From: Hydrogenophaga pseudoflava NBRC 102511
GTDB taxonomy: Bacteria; Pseudomonadota; Gammaproteobacteria; Burkholderiales; Burkholderiaceae_C
Assembly (NCBI RefSeq): GCF_001592285.1
Contig: NZ_BCWQ01000003.1
Coordinates: 186,001-250,000, forward strand
DNA: 64,000 bases
Reading direction: 5' to 3'
In this document: piece after piece, positions 7,689 to 17,766 of the stretch
Position numbering within the stretch: the stretch's first letter is position 1
Layout of the letters: every line of letters begins with the position of its first letter
Position numbers and translations under genes: made by a program
The notes under the pieces: model-generated
The model's input: only the letters and a program-made list of their open reading frames with translations
The model's database searches: none
Told to the model about the DNA's origin: nothing

Positions 7689-9593
<1,905 letters not shown>

Positions 9594-9604
9594 ACGCGTG
9601 GGGC

Positions 9605-9654
9605 GTGACAGCTGTCACTCTGGGTGGGTGACAGGTGCACGGGGTGTGACACCC
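9605..9654. promoter_or_regulatory. cluster of palindromic upstream activator sites
   Basis: Three related elements in 50 bases: a perfect 14-bp palindrome GTGACAGCTGTCAC (9605-9618), an imperfect copy GTGACAGGTGCAC (9628-9640), and GGGTGTGACACCC (9642-9654). All share the GTGACA core. They lie about 50-100 bases upstream of a sigma54 promoter, the usual distance for enhancer-binding proteins, and just after the activator gene. I infer they are its binding sites. Confidence 0.65.
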
Positions 9655-9706
9655 GCCGCCGCTGTCAAACGGTAAACAGATCAAGCACTTGCGCGCGCCG
9701 CCCGCA

Positions 9707-9721
9707 TGGCACGCGTCTTGT
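9707..9721 (+). promoter_or_regulatory. sigma54 (-24/-12) promoter
   Basis: TGGCACGCGTCTTGT matches the consensus TGGCACGN4TTGC except for the last base. The -24 GG is at 9708-9709. Transcription should begin near 9733, giving a leader of about 40 bases before the monooxygenase ATG at 9774. It fits the adjacent sigma54 activator gene and the upstream palindromes. Confidence 0.72.
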
Positions 9722-9773
9722 GATGCAGAAGGCACCGGCCCGCACCGAGGCCGGCATCACAGGAGACAAACCC

Positions 9774-11570
9774 ATGACTGCAAACACGCCCTCCCAGCGG
9801 GCCCAGCGCTGGCTGGACGCTTTCGGAGCCGCCCTGGCCTCCGGCAACCCCGACAACGTGCTGCCCCTCTTCGACGCCGACTGCTACTGGCGCGACCTCG
9901 TGTCCTTCACCTGGAACATCCGCACGCAGGAAGGCCACGACGCGGTGCGCGACATGCTCGCCGCGCGCCAGGCCGACGCGGGCGCGTCGAACTTCCAGCT
10001 TGAAGGCGAGGCCACCGAGGCCGATGGTGTCACCGAGGCCTGGTTCACCTTCGAGACCCGTGTCTCGCGCGGCCGGGGCCACCTTCGTCTGAAGGGTGAC
10101 AAGGCCTGGACCCTGCTGACCACCATGGTCGAGCTCAAGGGCTTTGAAGAGAAGAAGGGCGCCAACCGCATCAAGGGCGCCGAGCACGGCGTGCACAAGG
10201 GCCGCAAGAGCTGGCTCGAACTGCGGCAGGACGAGCAGGCGCGCCTGGGCTACGAGGAGCAGCCCTATGTGCTGATCATCGGCGGCGGGCAGGGCGGCAT
10301 CATCCTGGCCGCGCGGCTGCGCCGCCTGGGCGTGCCCACCATCGTGGTGGAGAAGAACCCGCGGCCCGGCGACAGCTGGCGCAACCGCTACAAGAGCCTG
10401 TGCCTGCACGACCCGGTCTGGTACGACCACCTGCCCTACATGCCGTTCCCGGACGACTGGCCGGTGTTCGCGCCCAAGGACAAGGTGGGCGACTGGCTGG
10501 AGATGTACACCAAGGTCATGGAGATCAACTACTGGGGCTCTACCACCGCGAAGAAGGCCAGCTACGACGAGGCCAAGGGCGAGTGGACCGTGGTGGTGGA
10601 CCGCAACGGTGAAGAGGTGACGCTGCGGCCGAAACAGCTGGTGTTCGCGCTCGGCGTGTCGGGCTACCCCAACGTGCCCAAGATTGCGGGCGCCGAGACC
10701 TTCGAGGGCGACCAGCACCACTCCAGCAAGCACCCCGGCCCCGAGAAGTACGCGGGCAAGAAGGCGGTGGTGCTGGGCTCCAACAACTCGGCGCACGACA
10801 TCTGCGCGGCGCTCTGGGAACACGGCGCGGACGTGACCATGATCCAGCGCAGCAGCACGCACATCGCGCCGTCGAACTCGCTGATGGAACTGGCGCTGGG
10901 CGGGCTCTACAGCGAAGAGGCGGTGAAGAACGGCATCGACCACCACAAGGCCGACCTGATCTTCGCCAGCGTGCCCTACAAGATCATGCACACCTTCCAC
11001 ATCCCCGTGTACGAGGAGATGAAGAAGCGCGACGCCGACCTCTACAGCCGGCTGGAGAAGGCGGGCTTCCTGCTCGATTTCGGCGACGACGGCTCGGGCC
11101 TGTTCATGAAGTACCTGCGCCGCGGTTCGGGCTACTACATCGACGTCGGCGCGAGCGAGCTGGTGGCCAACGGCAGCATCAAGCTCAAGAGCGGCGTGAA
11201 CATCGAGCGCATCAACCCGAAGAGCGTCACGCTCTCCGACGGCACCGAGCTGCCGGCCGACCTCATCGTCTACGCCACCGGCTATGGCTCGATGAACCAC
11301 TGGCTGGCCGATCTGGTGTCGCCCGAGGTGGCCGACCGCGTTGGCAAGGTCTGGGGCCTGGGGTCGAGTACGACGAAGGACCCCGGGCCGTGGGAAGGCG
11401 AGCTGCGCAACATGTGGAAGCCGACCAACCAGAAGCAGCTCTGGATTCACGGTGGCAACCTGCACCAGAGCCGCCACTATTCGCAGTTCCTGTCGCTGCA
11501 ACTGAAGGCGCGCTACGAAGGGCTGGACACGCCGGTCTACGGGCAGGCGGCGGTGCACCACCTGCGGTGA
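9774..11570 (+). CDS. FAD/NAD(P)H-dependent monooxygenase with N-terminal NTF2/SnoaL-like domain
   Basis: A 598-residue flavin-containing monooxygenase. Residues about 10-140 form a SnoaL/NTF2-like domain (QRWLDAFGAALASGNPDNVL, then DADCYWRDL). The FAD Rossmann motif IIGGGQGGIILAARLRRLG starts near residue 166. The FMO signature region is FEGDQHHSSKHPGPEKYAGK. A second Rossmann motif, VVLGSNNSAHDICAAL, near residue 330 binds NADPH. The ATYG-type motif is VYATGYGSMN. These proteins hydroxylate or Baeyer-Villiger oxidise small molecules; the substrate is not readable. The start at 9774 follows AGGAGACAAA. It is the apparent target of the sigma54 activator upstream. Confidence 0.85.
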   Translation: MTANTPSQRAQRWLDAFGAALASGNPDNVLPLFDADCYWRDLVSFTWNIRTQEGHDAVRDMLAARQADAGASNFQLEGEATEADGVTEAWFTFETRVSRGRGHLRLKGDKAWTLLTTMVELKGFEEKKGANRIKGAEHGVHKGRKSWLELRQDEQARLGYEEQPYVLIIGGGQGGIILAARLRRLGVPTIVVEKNPRPGDSWRNRYKSLCLHDPVWYDHLPYMPFPDDWPVFAPKDKVGDWLEMYTKVMEINYWGSTTAKKASYDEAKGEWTVVVDRNGEEVTLRPKQLVFALGVSGYPNVPKIAGAETFEGDQHHSSKHPGPEKYAGKKAVVLGSNNSAHDICAALWEHGADVTMIQRSSTHIAPSNSLMELALGGLYSEEAVKNGIDHHKADLIFASVPYKIMHTFHIPVYEEMKKRDADLYSRLEKAGFLLDFGDDGSGLFMKYLRRGSGYYIDVGASELVANGSIKLKSGVNIERINPKSVTLSDGTELPADLIVYATGYGSMNHWLADLVSPEVADRVGKVWGLGSSTTKDPGPWEGELRNMWKPTNQKQLWIHGGNLHQSRHYSQFLSLQLKARYEGLDTPVYGQAAVHHLR

Positions 11571-11591
11571 TCGTCTGAAGGGACGTGCTGG

Positions 11592-12491
11592 TCAGCCCTT
11601 GCGGCTCACCAGCACGATCCCCGCCGCCACGCCCAGCAGTGCCAGCACCAGCTGCAGGGTCAGCGGCTCGCCCAGCAGCACCACGCCGAACACCAGCGCG
11701 AACAGCGGGGTGAGGAAGGTGAATGTGGCCATCTGCGTCGCGGGGTAGTGGCGCAGCATCCACATCCAGGCCAGGTAGCTGGCGAAGGCGCCCACGGCGG
11801 TCTGCAGGAAGACCGAGCCCCAGGCCAGCGCGGAGTAGTCGAAGCTCCAGGTTTCGCCCAGCGCCAGCGACAGCACCGGGCAGACCACGGCGGTCACGCT
11901 CAGCTGGTAGAACAGCGACTTCTCGGCCTGGATAGAGGCCACCTTGGTGGTGCGGATGGCGATGGTGGTCAGGCCCCAGAACATGCCCGCTGCCAGGCCC
12001 ATGGCGTCGCCTTTCCACTGCCCTGGCGCGGAGCCGTGCAGGAAGGCTTCGCTGAAGGCGATGCCCACCGCGCCGAAGGCGATCACCAGGCCGATCCACT
12101 GGATCGTGCGCAGCTTCTCCGACGGCACGAAGCGCGGCAGCAGCACCGCCACCCAGAACGGGCTGGTGTAGAGGAACACCGTCAGGCGCGAGGCACTGGT
12201 GTGCTGCAGCCCGAGATAGATCAGGCAGAACTCGGCCGCGAACAGCAGGCCCACGATCAGGCCGCCCTGGAGCGAGCCATCGCTGTTGAACAGCTTCACG
12301 CCCCGGAACTGGCACCAGAGCCAGAGCAGGGCGGTGGCGCCGGCCATGCGCACGGAGGCCTGCCACAGCGGCGGGATTTCACGGCCCGCGAACTTGATCA
12401 GGATCTGCTGGAAGCCCCAGAAGGCGCAGCAGGCCACCAGCACGGTGATGGCGAAGGTGTCGAGGTGGTCTTTGCGTTGGACGGCGGTCAT
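11592..12491 (-). CDS. DMT superfamily transporter (EamA family)
   Basis: An inner-membrane transporter of 299 residues with about ten predicted membrane helices in two EamA repeats. The first repeat starts at AITVLVACCAFWGFQQILIK and the second near GLAAGMFWGLTTIAIRTTK. SYLAWMWMLRHYPATQMATF and the closing GVAAGIVLVSRKG are typical of RhaT/EamA exporters. It lies 52 bases downstream of the flavin reductase-MarR gene on the same strand and could be co-transcribed with it, perhaps moving the cluster's substrate or product. That link is inferred from position only. Confidence 0.85.
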   Translation of the reverse strand: MTAVQRKDHLDTFAITVLVACCAFWGFQQILIKFAGREIPPLWQASVRMAGATALLWLWCQFRGVKLFNSDGSLQGGLIVGLLFAAEFCLIYLGLQHTSASRLTVFLYTSPFWVAVLLPRFVPSEKLRTIQWIGLVIAFGAVGIAFSEAFLHGSAPGQWKGDAMGLAAGMFWGLTTIAIRTTKVASIQAEKSLFYQLSVTAVVCPVLSLALGETWSFDYSALAWGSVFLQTAVGAFASYLAWMWMLRHYPATQMATFTFLTPLFALVFGVVLLGEPLTLQLVLALLGVAAGIVLVSRKG

Positions 12492-12543
12492 GGGGGCAGG
12501 AGGGTAGCGCAGGCGCGACGCGACGGGTGTCGCGCGCGGCGCG

Positions 12544-13548
12544 TCATTGGCCGGAGGCGAGGCGTTGCAGATGGCGCTTGAGCGTGTCCGCCTCGTGCGC
12601 CGACCAGCGCGAGAGCAGATGGCTTTCCTGCGCGCGGGCCTGTTCGATCAGCGCGGCGGCGATGCGCCGGCCTTCGGCGGTGGCGGCCACCAGGGTGCGG
12701 CGCTGGTCGGCCGGGTCGGCCAGCAGTGCCAGCAGGCCGTCCTCGGCCATGCGCTGCACGAGCTTGGTGACGGTGGGCTGTTTGGCCAGCACGTCGTGCG
12801 CCAGCTGGCCGACGGCGATGGCGCCCTGGTTCTCGGGGTGGCTGAGCGCGGCGTCGTGCAGCACGGCCAGCACGCGCCAGGCGATGTGGGTCAGGCCCTG
12901 GGCGGCGATGGCGTTCTCGAAGTCCCGGTAGACCGCATGGCTGGCCTGGCCGAGCAGGTAGCCCAGGTAGCTGCCGACGAAGCGGCCGTCGGGCGGCCGC
13001 GGCGCGCTCGCGTCGGCCGGTGCGCCGTGCAGCGGGTGCTCGGTGTAGAAGCGGCCGCCGTGGTAGAGCAGGGGCGAGGCGTCGGCGCGGCGCGCGCAGC
13101 GCTCGACCTCGCCGACGAAGATCACGTGGTCGCCCTCGGTGTACTGGCTGCGGTTGAAGCACTCGAAGGTGGCGACGCTGCCTTCGAGCAGCGGCGCGCC
13201 GCCCGCGCCGTCGGTGTAGGCGACCCCGGCCCAGCGGTCGACGCCGCGCGCGGCAAAGCGCTCGGCCAGCGCCTGCTGGTCGGCGGCCAGCACATTGATC
13301 GCGTAGTGCCGGCCGTTGCTGAACACCGCCATCGAGCCGGCCGCCTTGCCCAGGCTCCACAGCACCAGCGGCGGGTCCAGCGAGACGGAATTGAACGAGC
13401 TGGCCGTCAGGCCGACGGGCTCACCCTGGTCGTTGCGCGCCGTGACGATGGTGACGCCGGTCGCGAACATGCCCAGCGTCGCGCGGAAGTCGCGCGGCGA
13501 AAAATCGGGCGGTTGGGCGGCGTGGCCGGCGGCACGGGACGGGGACAT
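12544..13548 (-). CDS. flavin reductase fused to a MarR-type domain
   Basis: A 334-residue two-domain protein. Residues about 20-170 are an HpaC-like flavin reductase (FRATLGMFATGVTIVTA, then GLTASSFNSVSLDPPLVLWSL). Residues about 195-334 look like a MarR winged helix (RVLAVLHDAALSHPENQGAI, then VLAKQPTVTKLVQRMAEDGL). This matches the layout of the reductase C1 of Acinetobacter p-hydroxyphenylacetate hydroxylase, where a MarR-like tail lets the substrate control flavin reduction. It should supply reduced flavin to the monooxygenase at 15535. It is transcribed divergently from the NicX-like operon across an 86-base gap with a palindrome. Confidence 0.87.
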   Translation of the reverse strand: MSPSRAAGHAAQPPDFSPRDFRATLGMFATGVTIVTARNDQGEPVGLTASSFNSVSLDPPLVLWSLGKAAGSMAVFSNGRHYAINVLAADQQALAERFAARGVDRWAGVAYTDGAGGAPLLEGSVATFECFNRSQYTEGDHVIFVGEVERCARRADASPLLYHGGRFYTEHPLHGAPADASAPRPPDGRFVGSYLGYLLGQASHAVYRDFENAIAAQGLTHIAWRVLAVLHDAALSHPENQGAIAVGQLAHDVLAKQPTVTKLVQRMAEDGLLALLADPADQRRTLVAATAEGRRIAAALIEQARAQESHLLSRWSAHEADTLKRHLQRLASGQ

Positions 13549-13567
13549 GGCTGCAATTTATATGAAA

Positions 13568-13577
13568 ATTCATGAAT
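13568..13577. promoter_or_regulatory. 10-bp palindrome between divergent catabolic genes
   Basis: ATTCATGAAT is a perfect palindrome within an AT-rich block (about 13557-13580) between the flavin reductase-MarR gene and the NicX-like gene. Position and composition suit a MarR-type operator controlling both directions. The regulator might be the MarR domain of the divergent gene or an unlinked protein. Confidence 0.45.
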
Positions 13578-13634
13578 AATGGGCCCGCGACCGCCATTTC
13601 CCCGATGGCAGGCCCCCCAAACAGGAGACAACCC

Positions 13635-14687
13635 ATGTTGCAGGAGCGGATCGAACCCGCCTGGATCGACGCGTTTGAAGCGGTGCTGCGGCGCTGTGCG
13701 CTGCAGCCGGGCGACACGGTGGCGATTCTCAACGAAAGCCAGAGCCGTCCGGTGCTGGTCGAGCTGGCGCGCCTGGCGGCGGCGCGGCTCGGGGCCCCGG
13801 CCTTCGTGCTGACCCTGCCCTCCGTGTTCGGCGCCGCGGGCGAACCCGTGACGCGCTCCACCGGGGCATCACCGGCCATTCAACAGCAGTTGCCGGTGAT
13901 CGCGGCATTGCAGGCCTGCACCTTGGTGATCGATTGCACGGTCGAGGGCCTGATGCATGCGCCCGAGCTGCCCGCCATCCTGCAGGGCAACGGCATCACG
14001 CAGCCGCGCGTCGTCTACGTCAGCAACGAGCACCCCGAAGCGCTGGCGCGCCTGCTGCCCGACGACGCGACCGAGGCGCGGGTGAAGGAACACGTCAAGC
14101 GCCTGCGCGGCGCGAAGGCCATGCGCGTGACCTCGCCCGCCGGCACCGAGCTCACGGTCTCGCTGCAGGGTGCGGTGGTGGGCGGCAACTGGGGCAGCAC
14201 CACACGTCCCGGCACGCTGACCCACTGGCCCGGCGGCCTGGTGCTGGCCTTCCCGGCGGCGGGCAGCGTCAGCGGCCGGCTGGTGCTGGCCGAGGGCGAC
14301 GTGAACCTGACCTTCAAGCGCTACATCGAACGCCCGATCACGCTGACCATCGAACACGACTACGTGACCCACATCGACGGCGGCGGCGTGGACGCCGAAC
14401 TGCTGCGCAGCTACTTCGCGGCCTGGGGGGAGAAGGAGGCGTATGCCGTGAGCCACGTGGGCTACGGCCTGTGCGAGGCCGCGCGCTGGGACAGCATGGC
14501 GCTTTACGACAAACGCGACTTCAACGGCACCGAGCTGCGCGCCTTCGCCGGCAACTTCCTCTACAGCACCGGCGCCAACGAAACCGCCGGCCGCTACACG
14601 CGCGGCCACTTCGACTGGCCGATGCGCGACTGCACCGTGGCGCTCGACGGCACGCTCGTCGTCGACGCAGGAAAGGTTGTGTCTTGA
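13635..14687 (+). CDS. NicX-like 2,5-dihydroxypyridine 5,6-dioxygenase (M29-like fold)
   Basis: A 350-residue protein, the same length as Pseudomonas putida NicX and alike along its whole span. Matching segments include LARLLPDDATEARV, THWPGGLVLAFP, then FKRYIERPITLTIE, then YAVSHVGYGLCEAARW, and LRAFAGNFLYSTGANE. NicX binds iron through two His and one Asp; the corresponding residues here are H274, H325 and D327 (GHFDWPMRDC). The expected reaction is extradiol-like opening of a dihydroxylated pyridine ring to N-formylmaleamate, but a different N-heterocycle is possible. The ATG follows ACAGGAGACAACCC. It is first in a three-gene operon. Confidence 0.82.
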   Translation: MLQERIEPAWIDAFEAVLRRCALQPGDTVAILNESQSRPVLVELARLAAARLGAPAFVLTLPSVFGAAGEPVTRSTGASPAIQQQLPVIAALQACTLVIDCTVEGLMHAPELPAILQGNGITQPRVVYVSNEHPEALARLLPDDATEARVKEHVKRLRGAKAMRVTSPAGTELTVSLQGAVVGGNWGSTTRPGTLTHWPGGLVLAFPAAGSVSGRLVLAEGDVNLTFKRYIERPITLTIEHDYVTHIDGGGVDAELLRSYFAAWGEKEAYAVSHVGYGLCEAARWDSMALYDKRDFNGTELRAFAGNFLYSTGANETAGRYTRGHFDWPMRDCTVALDGTLVVDAGKVVS

Positions 14688-15502
14688 ACAGCCTACCTAC
14701 CTTCACGACGCTGGGCGACGGCGAGACCACCGTGCTCATGCTGCACGGCATCGGCGGCGGGCACCTGGCCTTTGCGCCGCAGGTCGAGACCCTGGCCAGT
14801 GTGGGCTACCGCGCGGTGGCCTGGGACATGCCCGGCTACGGCCACAGCGCGCCCATCGAGCCCTACACCTTCAAGGGGCTGGCGCAGAGCTGCATCAACC
14901 TCATCGACGCGCTGCAGTGCGACAGCGTGGTTCTTGTAGGACACAGCATGGGTGGCATGGTGGCGCAGGAAGTCGTGGCCAGGCGCCCAGAGAAAGTGTG
15001 CAAGCTCATGCTCTGCGGCACCTCGGCCGCCTTCGGCAAGCGCAGCGACGGCAAGTCGGCCGAGGTCTGGGCGCAGCAGTTCATCGCGCAACGCACCGCG
15101 CCGCTGGACGCGGGCCAGAGCATGGCCGACATGGCCGCGAAGCTGGTGCCGCAGATGGTCGGCCCGGGCTCGCTGCCCGAAGGCGTGCGCCTGGCCGAGC
15201 AGTGCATGGGCCGCGTGCCGGCCGCCACCTACCGCCGCGCGCTGGACTGCATCGTCACCTTCGACCGGCAGGCCGCGCTGGCCCACATCGGCGTGCCCAC
15301 GCTGCTGGTGGGCGGCGAGTTCGACCGTGTGGCCTCGCCCGCGGTGATGAAGCAGATGGCGCAGCAGATCCCGAACGCGCGCTACACCGAGATGGCCGGC
15401 GTGGGCCACCTGATGAACCTGGAAGCGCCCGACGAGTTCGACCGCATCCTGCTGGATTTCCTCCGCGAGTCCGCGCCGAGGGCGCGCCCGGACCTGCACT
15501 GA
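14684..15502 (+). CDS. alpha/beta hydrolase, NicD-like (TTG start)
   Basis: A 272-residue alpha/beta hydrolase. LHGIGGGHLAF forms the oxyanion region, GHSMGG carries the nucleophile (Ser88), GGEFDRVA the Asp and GVGHLMN the His. In the nicotinate pathway NicD deformylates N-formylmaleamate, the product of NicX; the gene order here suggests the same or an analogous hydrolysis. The only plausible start is TTG at 14684, which overlaps the NicX-like stop by four bases (TTGA) and sits behind AGGAAAGG. No ATG or GTG precedes the conserved core, so this start is likely and translationally coupled. Confidence 0.85.
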   Translation: MNSLPTFTTLGDGETTVLMLHGIGGGHLAFAPQVETLASVGYRAVAWDMPGYGHSAPIEPYTFKGLAQSCINLIDALQCDSVVLVGHSMGGMVAQEVVARRPEKVCKLMLCGTSAAFGKRSDGKSAEVWAQQFIAQRTAPLDAGQSMADMAAKLVPQMVGPGSLPEGVRLAEQCMGRVPAATYRRALDCIVTFDRQAALAHIGVPTLLVGGEFDRVASPAVMKQMAQQIPNARYTEMAGVGHLMNLEAPDEFDRILLDFLRESAPRARPDLH

Positions 15503-15534
15503 ATCCGACACCCCCACCAGAGGAGACAACCCCG

Positions 15535-16806
15535 ATGAGCACCCGCCCCGTCAACCCGGTCACCGGCCTGGACTTCACCCCCGCCGTGGGCGACATGCCC
15601 TTCACGCCGCTGCAGCGCGAGTGGCTGGCCAGGGCGCACGCGCTGGGCCGCGACAAGTTCGCGGCGCGCGCGGCCCAGTGGGACCAGGAAGCGAGCTTCC
15701 CCTTCGCCAACTACGACGACCTGCGCGAACAGGGCTTCCTCAGGCTCTGCGTGCCGGTCGAGTTCGGCGGCGCGGGGGCGGACTTCCCGACCTACATGAT
15801 GGTGGCGGCCGAGATCGGGCGCTTCTGCGGTGCCACCGCGCTGACCTGGAACATGCACATCTGCTCGACCATGTGGACCGGCGTGCTGGCCGACGGCATC
15901 GCGATGAGCGAGGAGCAGCGCGCCGAACACGCGGCGCGGCGCAAGCTGCACTTCGCGCGCATCGTGAACGAGGGCAAGCTCTACGCCCAGCCCTTCAGCG
16001 AGGGCACGGCGGCGGCGGCGGGCCGTGCGCCCTTTGGCACCACGGCGAAAAAAGTCGAGGGCGGCTGGCTCATCAACGGCCGCAAGATCTGGGCGAGCCT
16101 CTCGGGCGCGGCCGACTACTACGGCGTGCTCTGCACCGAAGACAAGGGCGACCACCACCCCGACGCGCGCGACACGCTCTACATCAGCGTGCCCGCCACG
16201 GCCGAGGGCTTCTCCATCAGCGGCGACTGGGACCCGCTGGGCATGCGCGGCACCGTCAGCCGCAACCTCACGTTCAAGGACGTGTTCGTGAGCGACGACG
16301 AGCAGCTCATGCCGCGCGGCATCTACTTCAAGGGCGCGCAGACCTGGCCGGCCATGTTCTTCACGCTCTCGCCCACTTACCTGGGCGTGGCGAACGCGGC
16401 CTACGACTTCACGGTGCAGTACCTGCGCGGCGAGGTGCCGGGCGAGCCACCGATCAAGCGCCGCCAGTTCCCCACCAAGCAGATCACGGTGGCGCAGATG
16501 CGGCTGCAGCTCGAAGCCATGAAGAGCCTGTTCACCCGCGCCATCTTCGAGGCCAAACCCAACCCGAGCAAGGACGAGAAGCTGCGCCTCTACGCCGCGC
16601 ACCACGCGGTGATGGAAGGCGCCAACGACCTCGCGCGGCTGGCCATCCGCACCTGCGGCGGCCAGAGCATGCTCAAGCACCTGCCGCTGGAGCGCCTGTA
16701 CCGCGACAGCCGCTGCGGCGCGCTGATGCTGCCTTGGACGGCCGAGCTGATCCTCGACCGCATGGGCCGCGAGACCTTGTACGAGCCTGGCGAAAAGGAC
16801 GAGTGA
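15535..16806 (+). CDS. acyl-CoA-dehydrogenase-fold flavin monooxygenase (HpaH/C2-like)
   Basis: A 423-residue protein with the acyl-CoA dehydrogenase fold: a helical N-terminus (residues 15-130), a beta domain with GGWLINGRKIWASLSGAADY, and a C-terminal helical domain. The usual dehydrogenase catalytic EGT segment is absent; that region reads DSRCGALMLPWTAELILDRM. The length matches group D two-component monooxygenases such as the C2 oxygenase, and a matching flavin reductase is encoded 2 kb away. I infer it hydroxylates the aromatic or pyridine substrate before ring cleavage. The ATG follows AGAGGAGACAACCCCG. A true acyl-CoA dehydrogenase remains possible. Confidence 0.78.
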   Translation: MSTRPVNPVTGLDFTPAVGDMPFTPLQREWLARAHALGRDKFAARAAQWDQEASFPFANYDDLREQGFLRLCVPVEFGGAGADFPTYMMVAAEIGRFCGATALTWNMHICSTMWTGVLADGIAMSEEQRAEHAARRKLHFARIVNEGKLYAQPFSEGTAAAAGRAPFGTTAKKVEGGWLINGRKIWASLSGAADYYGVLCTEDKGDHHPDARDTLYISVPATAEGFSISGDWDPLGMRGTVSRNLTFKDVFVSDDEQLMPRGIYFKGAQTWPAMFFTLSPTYLGVANAAYDFTVQYLRGEVPGEPPIKRRQFPTKQITVAQMRLQLEAMKSLFTRAIFEAKPNPSKDEKLRLYAAHHAVMEGANDLARLAIRTCGGQSMLKHLPLERLYRDSRCGALMLPWTAELILDRMGRETLYEPGEKDE

Positions 16807-16833: not shown

Positions 16834-17766
16834 ATGACCCGACGCCCCGCTGCCGCTTCTTCTGAACGCCCACCTCGCCCTTGGTGCCGCCTGCCGGTGG
16901 CGCTGGCGCTGCTGGCGGCCTTGGGTGGGACTTCCCTGGCGGCGCTGGCGCAGCCGTTCGCGAAGGCGCCGGTCGACCCCTGCATCGAGTTCGTCGCGCG
17001 CCTGCCCAACGTGAAGGCAGCGCTGTGCCGCGCGGCCAAGCTCAAGCCCACCAGCGGTGGCGTGTCGGTGCAGGGCCGCACGCTGTACCAGCGCGACGTG
17101 ATGGCCCCCGACGCCAAGGTGCGGGTGCTGGTGGTGGGCGCGATGCACGGCGACGAGCTGTCCTCGGCCGCCGTGGCCCTGCACTGGATCCAGCGCGCCG
17201 TGGAGACACCGTCCAACGTGCACTGGCGCTTCATCCCGGCGCTCAACCCCGACGGCCTGATGGCGCGACCGGCCAAGCGGGTCAACGCCCGCGGCGTCGA
17301 CCTCAACCGCAATTTCCCGACGCCCAACTGGACGCGCGACGCCAAGATCTACTGGGAACAACGGACGCAGAAAGACCCGCGCCGCTGGCCCGGCCCCAAG
17401 CCGCTGTCCGAGCCCGAGTCGAAGTTCTTCCACGAAGAGATGGAGCGCTTCCAGCCGGACCTGATCGTGAGCATCCACGCGCCCTACGGCGTGCTCGACT
17501 TCGACGGCCCCACCGTGCCGCCGGCGCGCCTGGGCCGCCTCTACCTCGACCAGGTCGGCATCTTCCCCGGCAGCCTGGGCAACTACGGCGGCGTGCACAA
17601 GGGCATGCCGGTGGTGACCATCGAGCTGCCCAGCGCCATCCGCACCCCGCTGGACGCCGAGATGCGCCAGATGTGGCTGGACCTGCTGCGCTGGATGAGC
17701 GAGCGCGTCATCCCCGCCGAAGGCGACACCAAGGTGCTGCCGGTCAAGGTGAAGAAGACCGGCTGA
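16834..17766 (+). CDS. M14 family zinc carboxypeptidase, exported
   Basis: A 310-residue metallopeptidase of the M14 family, similar in plan to murein peptide amidases such as MpaA. A signal peptide (about residues 19-40, LPVALALLAALGGTSLAALA) implies export. AMHGDELSSAAV near residue 103 supplies the His and Glu zinc ligands and SIHAPYG the third His. VDLNRNFPT carries the substrate-binding Asn-Arg, and VTIELPS the catalytic Glu. It probably trims peptidoglycan peptides in the periplasm. A LysR-type regulator follows 22 bases later on the same strand. Confidence 0.86.
   Translation: MTRRPAAASSERPPRPWCRLPVALALLAALGGTSLAALAQPFAKAPVDPCIEFVARLPNVKAALCRAAKLKPTSGGVSVQGRTLYQRDVMAPDAKVRVLVVGAMHGDELSSAAVALHWIQRAVETPSNVHWRFIPALNPDGLMARPAKRVNARGVDLNRNFPTPNWTRDAKIYWEQRTQKDPRRWPGPKPLSEPESKFFHEEMERFQPDLIVSIHAPYGVLDFDGPTVPPARLGRLYLDQVGIFPGSLGNYGGVHKGMPVVTIELPSAIRTPLDAEMRQMWLDLLRWMSERVIPAEGDTKVLPVKVKKTG

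Follow-up and report, generated by a model that had tools for sequence, protein, structure and literature searches.

The closest described relative of the enzyme treated here is NicX, the 2,5-dihydroxypyridine 5,6-dioxygenase of Pseudomonas putida KT2440 (structures 7cn3 and 7cup). According to excerpts of PMC7910607, its iron is bound by His265, Ser302, His318 and Asp320, Glu177 hydrogen-bonds N1 and O1 of 2,5-dihydroxypyridine, His189 bonds O1, and a double alanine mutant of Glu177 and His189 is dead. Both NicX and HpdF are stated, in an excerpt of PMC7356986, to resemble aminopeptidases more than known dioxygenases. We analysed a stretch of 64,000 nucleotides from Hydrogenophaga pseudoflava NBRC 102511 (contig NZ_BCWQ01000003.1, positions 186,001 to 250,000), hereafter the window, which carries a gene for a NicX-like protein followed by genes for an alpha/beta hydrolase and an acyl-CoA-dehydrogenase-fold protein, and facing a gene in which a flavin reductase is fused to a MarR winged-helix domain. 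Judging from sequence comparisons, these genes probably form a catabolic cassette distinct from the nic pathway, whose substrate would be a hydroxylated aromatic with either a carbocyclic or a heterocyclic ring.

Parts of this arrangement are found in other described systems. The p-hydroxyphenylacetate 3-hydroxylase of Acinetobacter baumannii likewise has a reductase with a C-terminal MarR domain (HpaC, 5zc2) serving a separate acyl-CoA-dehydrogenase-fold oxygenase, and excerpts of PMC10816480 describe HpaC as an autoinhibited reductase that is released by substrate. Nevertheless, the oxygenase of the window is distant from that of A. baumannii (HphnlacHdxOX model, E 2e-12), the window has a conserved putative operator and unfused MarR relatives, which point to DNA binding, and a NicX-type gene follows. 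The HsaABCD cassette for steroid ring A has the same four kinds of activity, but its ring-cleaving enzyme is of the vicinal-oxygen-chelate type, whereas that of the window belongs to the NicX family. The nearest published layout that we found is hcdABC, given in an excerpt of PMC6222606 as a flavin hydroxylase, an extradiol dioxygenase and a putative hydrolase.

The preliminary description of this locus had proposed that a two-component hydroxylase feeding NicX-type cleavage would be a variant pathway. The arrangement is indeed present, but its novelty is weakened because NicX-family genes also adjoin two-component flavin hydroxylase genes, of the HpaB type, on plasmids of Rhizobium daejeonense (L120) and Peribacillus frigoritolerans (L122). 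In these two loci, which are other unexplored NicX-type routes, the hydroxylase belongs to a different family from that of the window, the partners are amidases or another hydrolase, and the residue corresponding to Glu177 of NicX is Gln (L120) or Glu (L122). The R. daejeonense locus (NZ_CP048425.1, 1643-8023) holds the NicX-like gene with HpaB-type 4-hydroxyphenylacetate hydroxylase genes, a flavin reductase and two amidases; on the Peribacillus plasmid (NZ_CP084540.1, 3199-7017) the NicX-like gene stands beside HpaB-type 4-hydroxyphenylacetate hydroxylase genes. Therefore, the combination of a NicX-family gene with two-component hydroxylase genes is not unique; the reductase-MarR architecture was already known as well. 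Regarding the cassette itself, the NicX family with such partners and the idea of a reductase-MarR regulator, no description was found in the excerpts of the open-licence literature, which leaves subscription journals mostly outside, and the cassette, the Glu177-less dioxygenase clade and the operator are apparently undescribed.

A NicX-family clade that has lost Glu177

By its sequence and its structure model, the NicX-like protein is predicted to be a NicX-family dioxygenase. NicX was the only solved relative with a strong sequence match (7cn3, Table 1), and the length of the protein agrees with it. Identity is 36% to NicX and 38-41% to five proteins from nic contexts (L084-L088), a nic context being recognised from hydrolase, isomerase or amidase genes nearby. 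The structure model (predicted local distance difference test score, pLDDT, 88) reaches a template modelling (TM) score of 0.89 to 7cn3_C, compared with 0.58-0.64 to M29 aminopeptidases. The conserved iron ligands H274, H325 and D327 of the preliminary description are found at these positions, and a fourth one, S311, which corresponds to Ser302 of NicX, can be added; the four ligands are kept in all the 98 distinct rows covering those columns. The reading of the protein as an aminopeptidase was rejected because the model fits NicX better and because Peptidase_M29 (PF02073) has no match in the protein; that model has no match in the genome either, and it does match 30 of the 299 genomes of a phylum sample. 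Thus the NicX-type identity proposed earlier holds for both the fold and the iron site.

Nevertheless, the protein belongs to a clade separate from the NicX proteins of nic contexts. In a tree of 55 of the 107 rows, thinned within Comamonadaceae and freed of duplicates, this clade forms one branch with a support of 100/100 and a length of 1.52. A tree with an M29 outgroup was set aside, as two of the five outgroup rows were evidently wrong frames and the outgroup did not cohere; the profile of the clade matched none of these five rows. The residues of the substrate site were compared in 88 rows of the clade and 11 rows outside it, without counting eight duplicates (L097-L103 and L107); no complete row was obtained for L070 and L083. 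Glu at the position of NicX Glu177 was present in none of the 88 clade rows and in 7 of 7 nic-context rows. The window protein has Asn185 there, and the clade as a whole has Asn (72 rows), Gly (5), Val (5), Thr (4), Ala (1) or Ile (1), whereas the 11 rows outside it have Glu (9) or Gln (2).

The partners of NicX in the nic pathway were also looked for. The alpha/beta hydrolase is only about 21-23% identical to NicD proteins over long alignments (best E 4e-6), while five NicD proteins are 48-65% alike among themselves, and its nearest NCBIfam models are the enol-lactonases PcaDC and PcaD, far below the cut-off. The label "NicD-like" thus does not hold beyond the general hydrolase fold, and alignment to NicD reveals no NicD orthologue at the cluster, a genome-wide search for NicD not having been made. 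NicE, which the preliminary description took to be absent, has no match in the genome with a query that finds NicE in two of three control records, although an isomerase of another family could still be encoded; the Pfam family Amdase has no match in the genome either, but its own control was also silent everywhere. As for NicF, four isochorismatase-fold proteins, none assigned to it, are encoded elsewhere in the genome. NicC was not found among the nine window proteins scanned (no genome-wide search for it was made), and the Pfam scan of window proteins gave no molybdenum hydroxylase gene in the cluster.

The loss of Glu177 across the clade, a hydrolase that is not NicD and the absence of NicE make 2,5-dihydroxypyridine an unlikely substrate as far as the sequences tell, and leave an N-heterocycle unproven. 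Consequently, the N-heterocyclic, NicX-type substrate of the preliminary description was not supported.

The predicted hydroxylase, its MarR-fused reductase and a putative operator

The best sequence match of the oxygenase among solved structures is 5z8t/5gj7 (E 7e-36), the former titled Flavin-containing monooxygenase. Oxygenase and reductase match the HsaA and HsaB models respectively, both below the cut-off. We assign the protein as a probable oxygenase because of its partner reductase, its sequence match to a monooxygenase and the strict company of the ring-cleaving enzyme: among 67 genomes of the genus, oxygenase and NicX-like gene occurred together in 42, the oxygenase alone in 2, both of them less than 65% complete, and neither in 23. 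The genome G313 is not counted among the carriers since its sole match was 39% identical. An acyl-CoA-dehydrogenase-fold oxygenase with a partner flavin reductase corresponds to the two-component flavin monooxygenases of group D, and such a hydroxylase beside a NicX-family dioxygenase, as had been proposed, agrees with our comparisons. The oxygenase clade is highly conserved, and Pro400 is invariant in its 20 aligned rows; the PDB alignments stop just short of this residue.

The closest solved structure to the reductase is that of the A. baumannii p-hydroxyphenylacetate hydroxylase (5zc2, E 8e-42). The MarR-like tail noted earlier could be confirmed as well: its Pfam matches lie just under the cut-off (MarR_2, 8.4e-06; MarR, 3.9e-05) and solved MarR proteins match the C-terminal part (for instance 7kfo, E 1.9e-18), next to the clear Flavin_Reduct domain.

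In order to place the fusion, relatives of the locus were collected. DNA patterns matched 151 genome-contig stretches, 127 of which encode a relative, and the best 80 were taken as loci; three loci on plasmids and another six in other genomes bring the total to 89, of which 88 were usable for the neighbour and operator/MarR counts (L079 is truncated). Neighbouring genes were labelled from a codon-position G+C filter and the longest frames, so that their ends may be off. Reductase and MarR in one frame are a minority (10 of 88 loci), and in 56 they are separate genes. The separate MarR gene lies downstream of the reductase gene on the same strand in 54 of these 56 loci (in the other two they diverge), so the fused gene would seem to be a reductase combined with the regulator of the operon. 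The fused and split states need at least four changes on the tree, in which 26 rows were scored.

The divergent promoter contains a palindrome, ATGAANNTTCAT, which occurs once in the window and in none of 100 shuffles. In 67 of 82 loci (83 without L070) it is found in the 300 bp preceding the NicX-like gene, and only three further copies were found in those loci, likewise at cluster promoters. The palindrome is present in 66 of the 68 loci with a MarR gene, compared with 3 of the 20 where none was found; in these three, the contigs are short on the reductase side, and the same is true of L039 and L070 among the other 17. It is also kept in 9 of the 10 fused loci. Regarding the recognition-helix region, 10 of the 11 fused rows, the window included, share AKQPTVTKLVQRM, and KQPTVTKLVQRM is found in 10 of the 16 unfused MarR rows aligned, the fused helix being close to that of the unfused MarR genes of relatives. 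The fused protein is the probable electron donor to the oxygenase and probably also regulates the divergent operon. Most economically, the fusion would still bind the operator, and reductase and regulator would then be one protein.

Proposed pathway and its alternatives

We propose that the reductase domain would make reduced flavin from NAD(P)H and that the oxygenase would hydroxylate the ring with this flavin and O2; cleavage between neighbouring carbons would follow by the NicX-family Fe(II) enzyme, and the alpha/beta hydrolase likely acts on the cleavage product, hydrolysing the opened ring. The MarR domain, which here shares a single chain with the reductase, would bind ATGAANNTTCAT and would most likely repress the operon until the substrate or an intermediate relieves the repression. 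An AMP-forming acyl-CoA ligase, unlinked in this genome, would probably activate the substrate or a product.

This ligase gene follows the oxygenase gene in the distant loci L073, L074, L076, L081, L082, L110 and L111, and by its position it lies beside the oxygenase gene in G283, G299, G329 and G336. Its homologue in the window's genome (55% identity) is on another contig, in no evident operon; no operator was found near this remote ligase (L135), therefore we do not claim a shared regulon. The nearest solved structure is a feruloyl-CoA synthetase (E 2e-97). With a completeness of 90% or more and a contamination of 5% or less as limits, 44 genomes of the genus remain; in this set the ligase is present in all 29 cassette carriers, compared with 2 of the 15 non-carriers, and over all 67 genomes in 38 of 42 and 5 of 25, shared ancestry being uncorrected in both comparisons. 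Furthermore, the cassettes of Ensifer, Aminobacter and Shinella are accompanied by a glutamine-synthetase-like gene and an amino acid-polyamine-organocation (APC) permease gene, annotated as such in Ensifer and Aminobacter and recognised by similarity in Shinella. Because of the company of the ligase and these neighbours, we suspect that the ring may be processed in conjugated or substituted form.

Several alternatives have to be weighed against this proposal. A hydroxypyridine or hydroxypicolinate could be converted to 2,5-dihydroxypyridine, cleaved to N-formylmaleamate in the NicX fashion and deformylated by the hydrolase, with the functions of NicE and NicF supplied by unrelated genes. The NicX fold with its iron ligands, the retained equivalents of His105 and His189, the existence of NicX-like genes beside HpaB-type two-component hydroxylase genes and the four isochorismatase-fold proteins would fit such a route; however, Glu177 is lost in 88 of 88 clade rows, the genome has no NicE of the family searched although the control worked, the hydrolase is not NicD and the window cluster lacks a molybdenum hydroxylase gene, so that we regard this route as unlikely. 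A carbocyclic meta-cleavage like that of HsaABCD is a specific form of our own proposal and a possibility to be taken seriously, though we would not yet expect it: a diol would be made, the NicX-type enzyme would replace the extradiol dioxygenase and the hydrolase would be a C-C hydrolase. The same four kinds of activity with matches to the HsaA and HsaB models below the cut-off, the loss of the contact to the ring nitrogen (Glu177) and a ligase nearest to feruloyl-CoA synthetase all agree with it, as does a 2-keto-4-pentenoate-hydratase-like gene (E 5e-30, below the cut-off) beside the dioxygenase and hydrolase genes of L112. Nevertheless, such a hydratase was seen beside the cluster in L112 only, other loci not having been searched for one, and the models nearest to the hydrolase are enol-lactonases. 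To our knowledge, moreover, no NicX-family enzyme cleaves a carbocycle, which also counts against this form. The hydratase-like gene of L112 occupies positions 10775-11587 on the minus strand, and no close homologue of the cassette oxygenase was seen in that locus.

The two remaining alternatives concern single proteins. The MarR domain could be an effector-sensing autoinhibitory domain only, without DNA binding, as in A. baumannii HpaC, which has the same architecture and whose inhibition is relieved by 4-hydroxyphenylacetate according to an excerpt of PMC10816480. The retention of the operator in the fused loci, the AKQPTVTKLVQRM and KQPTVTKLVQRM motifs of the fused and unfused rows and the fact that the operator is mostly missing where MarR is missing argue against it, and we find it rather improbable. 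It is more improbable still that the last gene encodes an ordinary acyl-CoA dehydrogenase and that the neighbours do not form one pathway. The fold search, which puts true dehydrogenases first (Z 38), and an orphan homologue on a cyanobacterial plasmid would suit this idea, but the best sequence match is a flavin-containing monooxygenase, Pro400 is invariant near the presumed site of the catalytic base in dehydrogenases, and oxygenase and dioxygenase co-occur strictly. The orphan homologue, 57% identical, was found at 9998-11245 of L118, a conjugative plasmid record of Dolichospermum sp. DET69 from a metagenome-assembled genome (MAG) of a cyanobacterial bloom, and no NicX-like gene is annotated less than 10 kb from it.

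On the other side, several points weigh against our own proposal. His is kept in the clade at positions 105 (88 of 88 rows) and 189 (87 of 88), which speaks for a NicX-like pose of the substrate. Residue 177 alone cannot exclude a pyridine because positions 105 and 189 vary outside the clade, where 105 is Phe in 8 of 11 rows and 189 is Asn in L088. The cassette is not always whole, as L068 lacks both hydrolase and oxygenase, and L060 and L071 lack the oxygenase, on contigs that extend past the site. The fold search gives a Z of 35.8 for 5z8t and up to 38.3 for true acyl-CoA dehydrogenases, and the apparent lack of a catalytic Glu in the oxygenase depends on where this residue is taken to lie in the dehydrogenases. 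Finally, the co-occurrence figures of the ligase ignore shared ancestry and come without a control gene. Even so, a non-nic cassette for a hydroxylated aromatic stays our preferred explanation.

A bolder version of this explanation, which we put forward as speculation and rather doubt as a whole, is that the fused protein could be a trigger enzyme: a flavin reductase and at the same time the repressor of its own operon, in which the substrate would release the DNA while switching on flavin reduction. It would feed a NicX clade cleaving a substituted, perhaps CoA-tagged, non-pyridine ring, the substituent being held in the space left by Glu177.

The locus, its neighbours and its distribution

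The four open reading frames of the preliminary description and their strands agree with those in Table 1. The NicX-like gene begins with an ATG preceded by AGGAGA, at a start position common to its relatives, and its product is 98% identical to that of Hydrogenophaga flava. The hydrolase gene starts with a TTG that overlaps the stop codon of the NicX-like gene (TTGA), and the M14 peptidase gene begins 27 bp past the oxygenase gene.

Table 1. Positions in the window of the cassette genes, the putative operator and the flanking genes
Feature	Position	Strand	Basis or remark
Flavin reductase and MarR winged-helix domain in one chain	12544..13548	-	Pfam Flavin_Reduct, E 2.6e-41
Palindrome ATGAAAATTCAT, putative MarR operator	13562..13573	not assigned	in the divergent promoter
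NicX-family Fe(II) ring-cleaving dioxygenase (predicted), 350 aa	13635..14687	+	7cn3 (NicX), E 2e-55
Alpha/beta hydrolase	14684..15502	+	Pfam Abhydrolase_1, E 5.4e-31
Acyl-CoA-dehydrogenase-fold oxygenase (predicted) of a two-component flavin monooxygenase	15535..16806	+	Pfam acyl-CoA dehydrogenase domains
EamA-family transporter	11592..12491	-	Pfam EamA, E 7.9e-34
M14-type zinc peptidase (MpaA-like)	16834..17766	+	Peptidase_M14, E 1.1e-15

That these genes form a single coherent block, as first suggested, is supported by their order, which recurs in most of the relatives retrieved. Among the 88 loci, the NicX-like gene has the hydrolase gene nearby in 78, oxygenase and reductase genes in 72 each and a MarR gene in 68, together with an EamA gene at most 6 kb away in 63 and an M14 gene at most 8 kb away in 38, all of these being lower bounds because several loci stop at contig edges. 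The EamA transporter is a member of the conserved block and may serve the uptake or export of the substrate or an intermediate. The M14 peptidase gene, which often adjoins the cluster, was counted with this block as well. An acetoacetyl-CoA synthetase gene lies near the cluster in 41 of 83 loci; this neighbour, the M14 and EamA genes, the binding protein of tripartite tricarboxylate transporter (TTT) type and the beta-lactamase-fold gene are explained as well by shared synteny. A beta-lactamase-family serine hydrolase gene separates the alpha/beta hydrolase gene from the oxygenase gene in L014 (about 11850-13150), L017, L022, L032, L043, L048, L054 and L064, an insertion seen in some Ramlibacter, Caenimonas and Hydrogenophaga loci.

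Of 83 loci, 19 have a gene for the large subunit of a molybdenum hydroxylase (MoCoBD) and 17 have a Rieske gene, mostly in Ramlibacter, Caenimonas and other Burkholderiales. Such genes were considered for the first step and, by our judgement, treated as neighbours and not as parts of the cassette; no small subunits were noticed beside the large one, a search aimed at them not having been made. An apparent alternative operon in L060 and L071 was identified from its sequence, by eye, as a transhydrogenase with a CoA ligase.

Upstream in the window (7689-11570) there is a sigma-54 activator with a GAF domain and then a flavin-containing monooxygenase whose N-terminal part is SnoaL-like; the two adjoin the cassette together in just four of the loci compared (L004, L005, L010 and L038). 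The alphaproteobacterial form of the cassette (L001, L002 and L003), which precedes the glutamine-synthetase-like and APC permease genes, has a hydrolase with an extra N-terminal part, in L001 a Polyketide_cyc2/SRPBCC-type domain. The Aminobacter locus (L002) has, upstream of the cassette, a cupin like gentisate and 5-aminosalicylate dioxygenases, a fumarylacetoacetate hydrolase (FAH)-fold hydrolase and a nitrilase-like gene. In L113 (9180-15916), directly past the cassette and an ATP-binding cassette (ABC) transporter of polar amino acid type, a LacI regulator and genes resembling those for sulfonate (dihydroxypropanesulfonate) degradation were recognised by eye.

In a class sample of 274 genomes, ten had any match at E <= 0.001, seven of them with at least 52% identity, the window's genome included. 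The gene set is widespread in bacteria and related to nicotinic-acid degradation. Since 42 of the 67 genomes of the genus carry the cassette, which makes it common there, its substrate is probably an ordinary environmental aromatic. A sister clade that keeps the iron site and lacks the nitrogen-recognising Glu is a natural specificity test for an odd ring-cleaving fold, and this Glu177-less clade may hold a new ring-cleavage reaction. Finally, with a putative operator at hand, the question of a flavin reductase carrying its own operon's repressor becomes testable.

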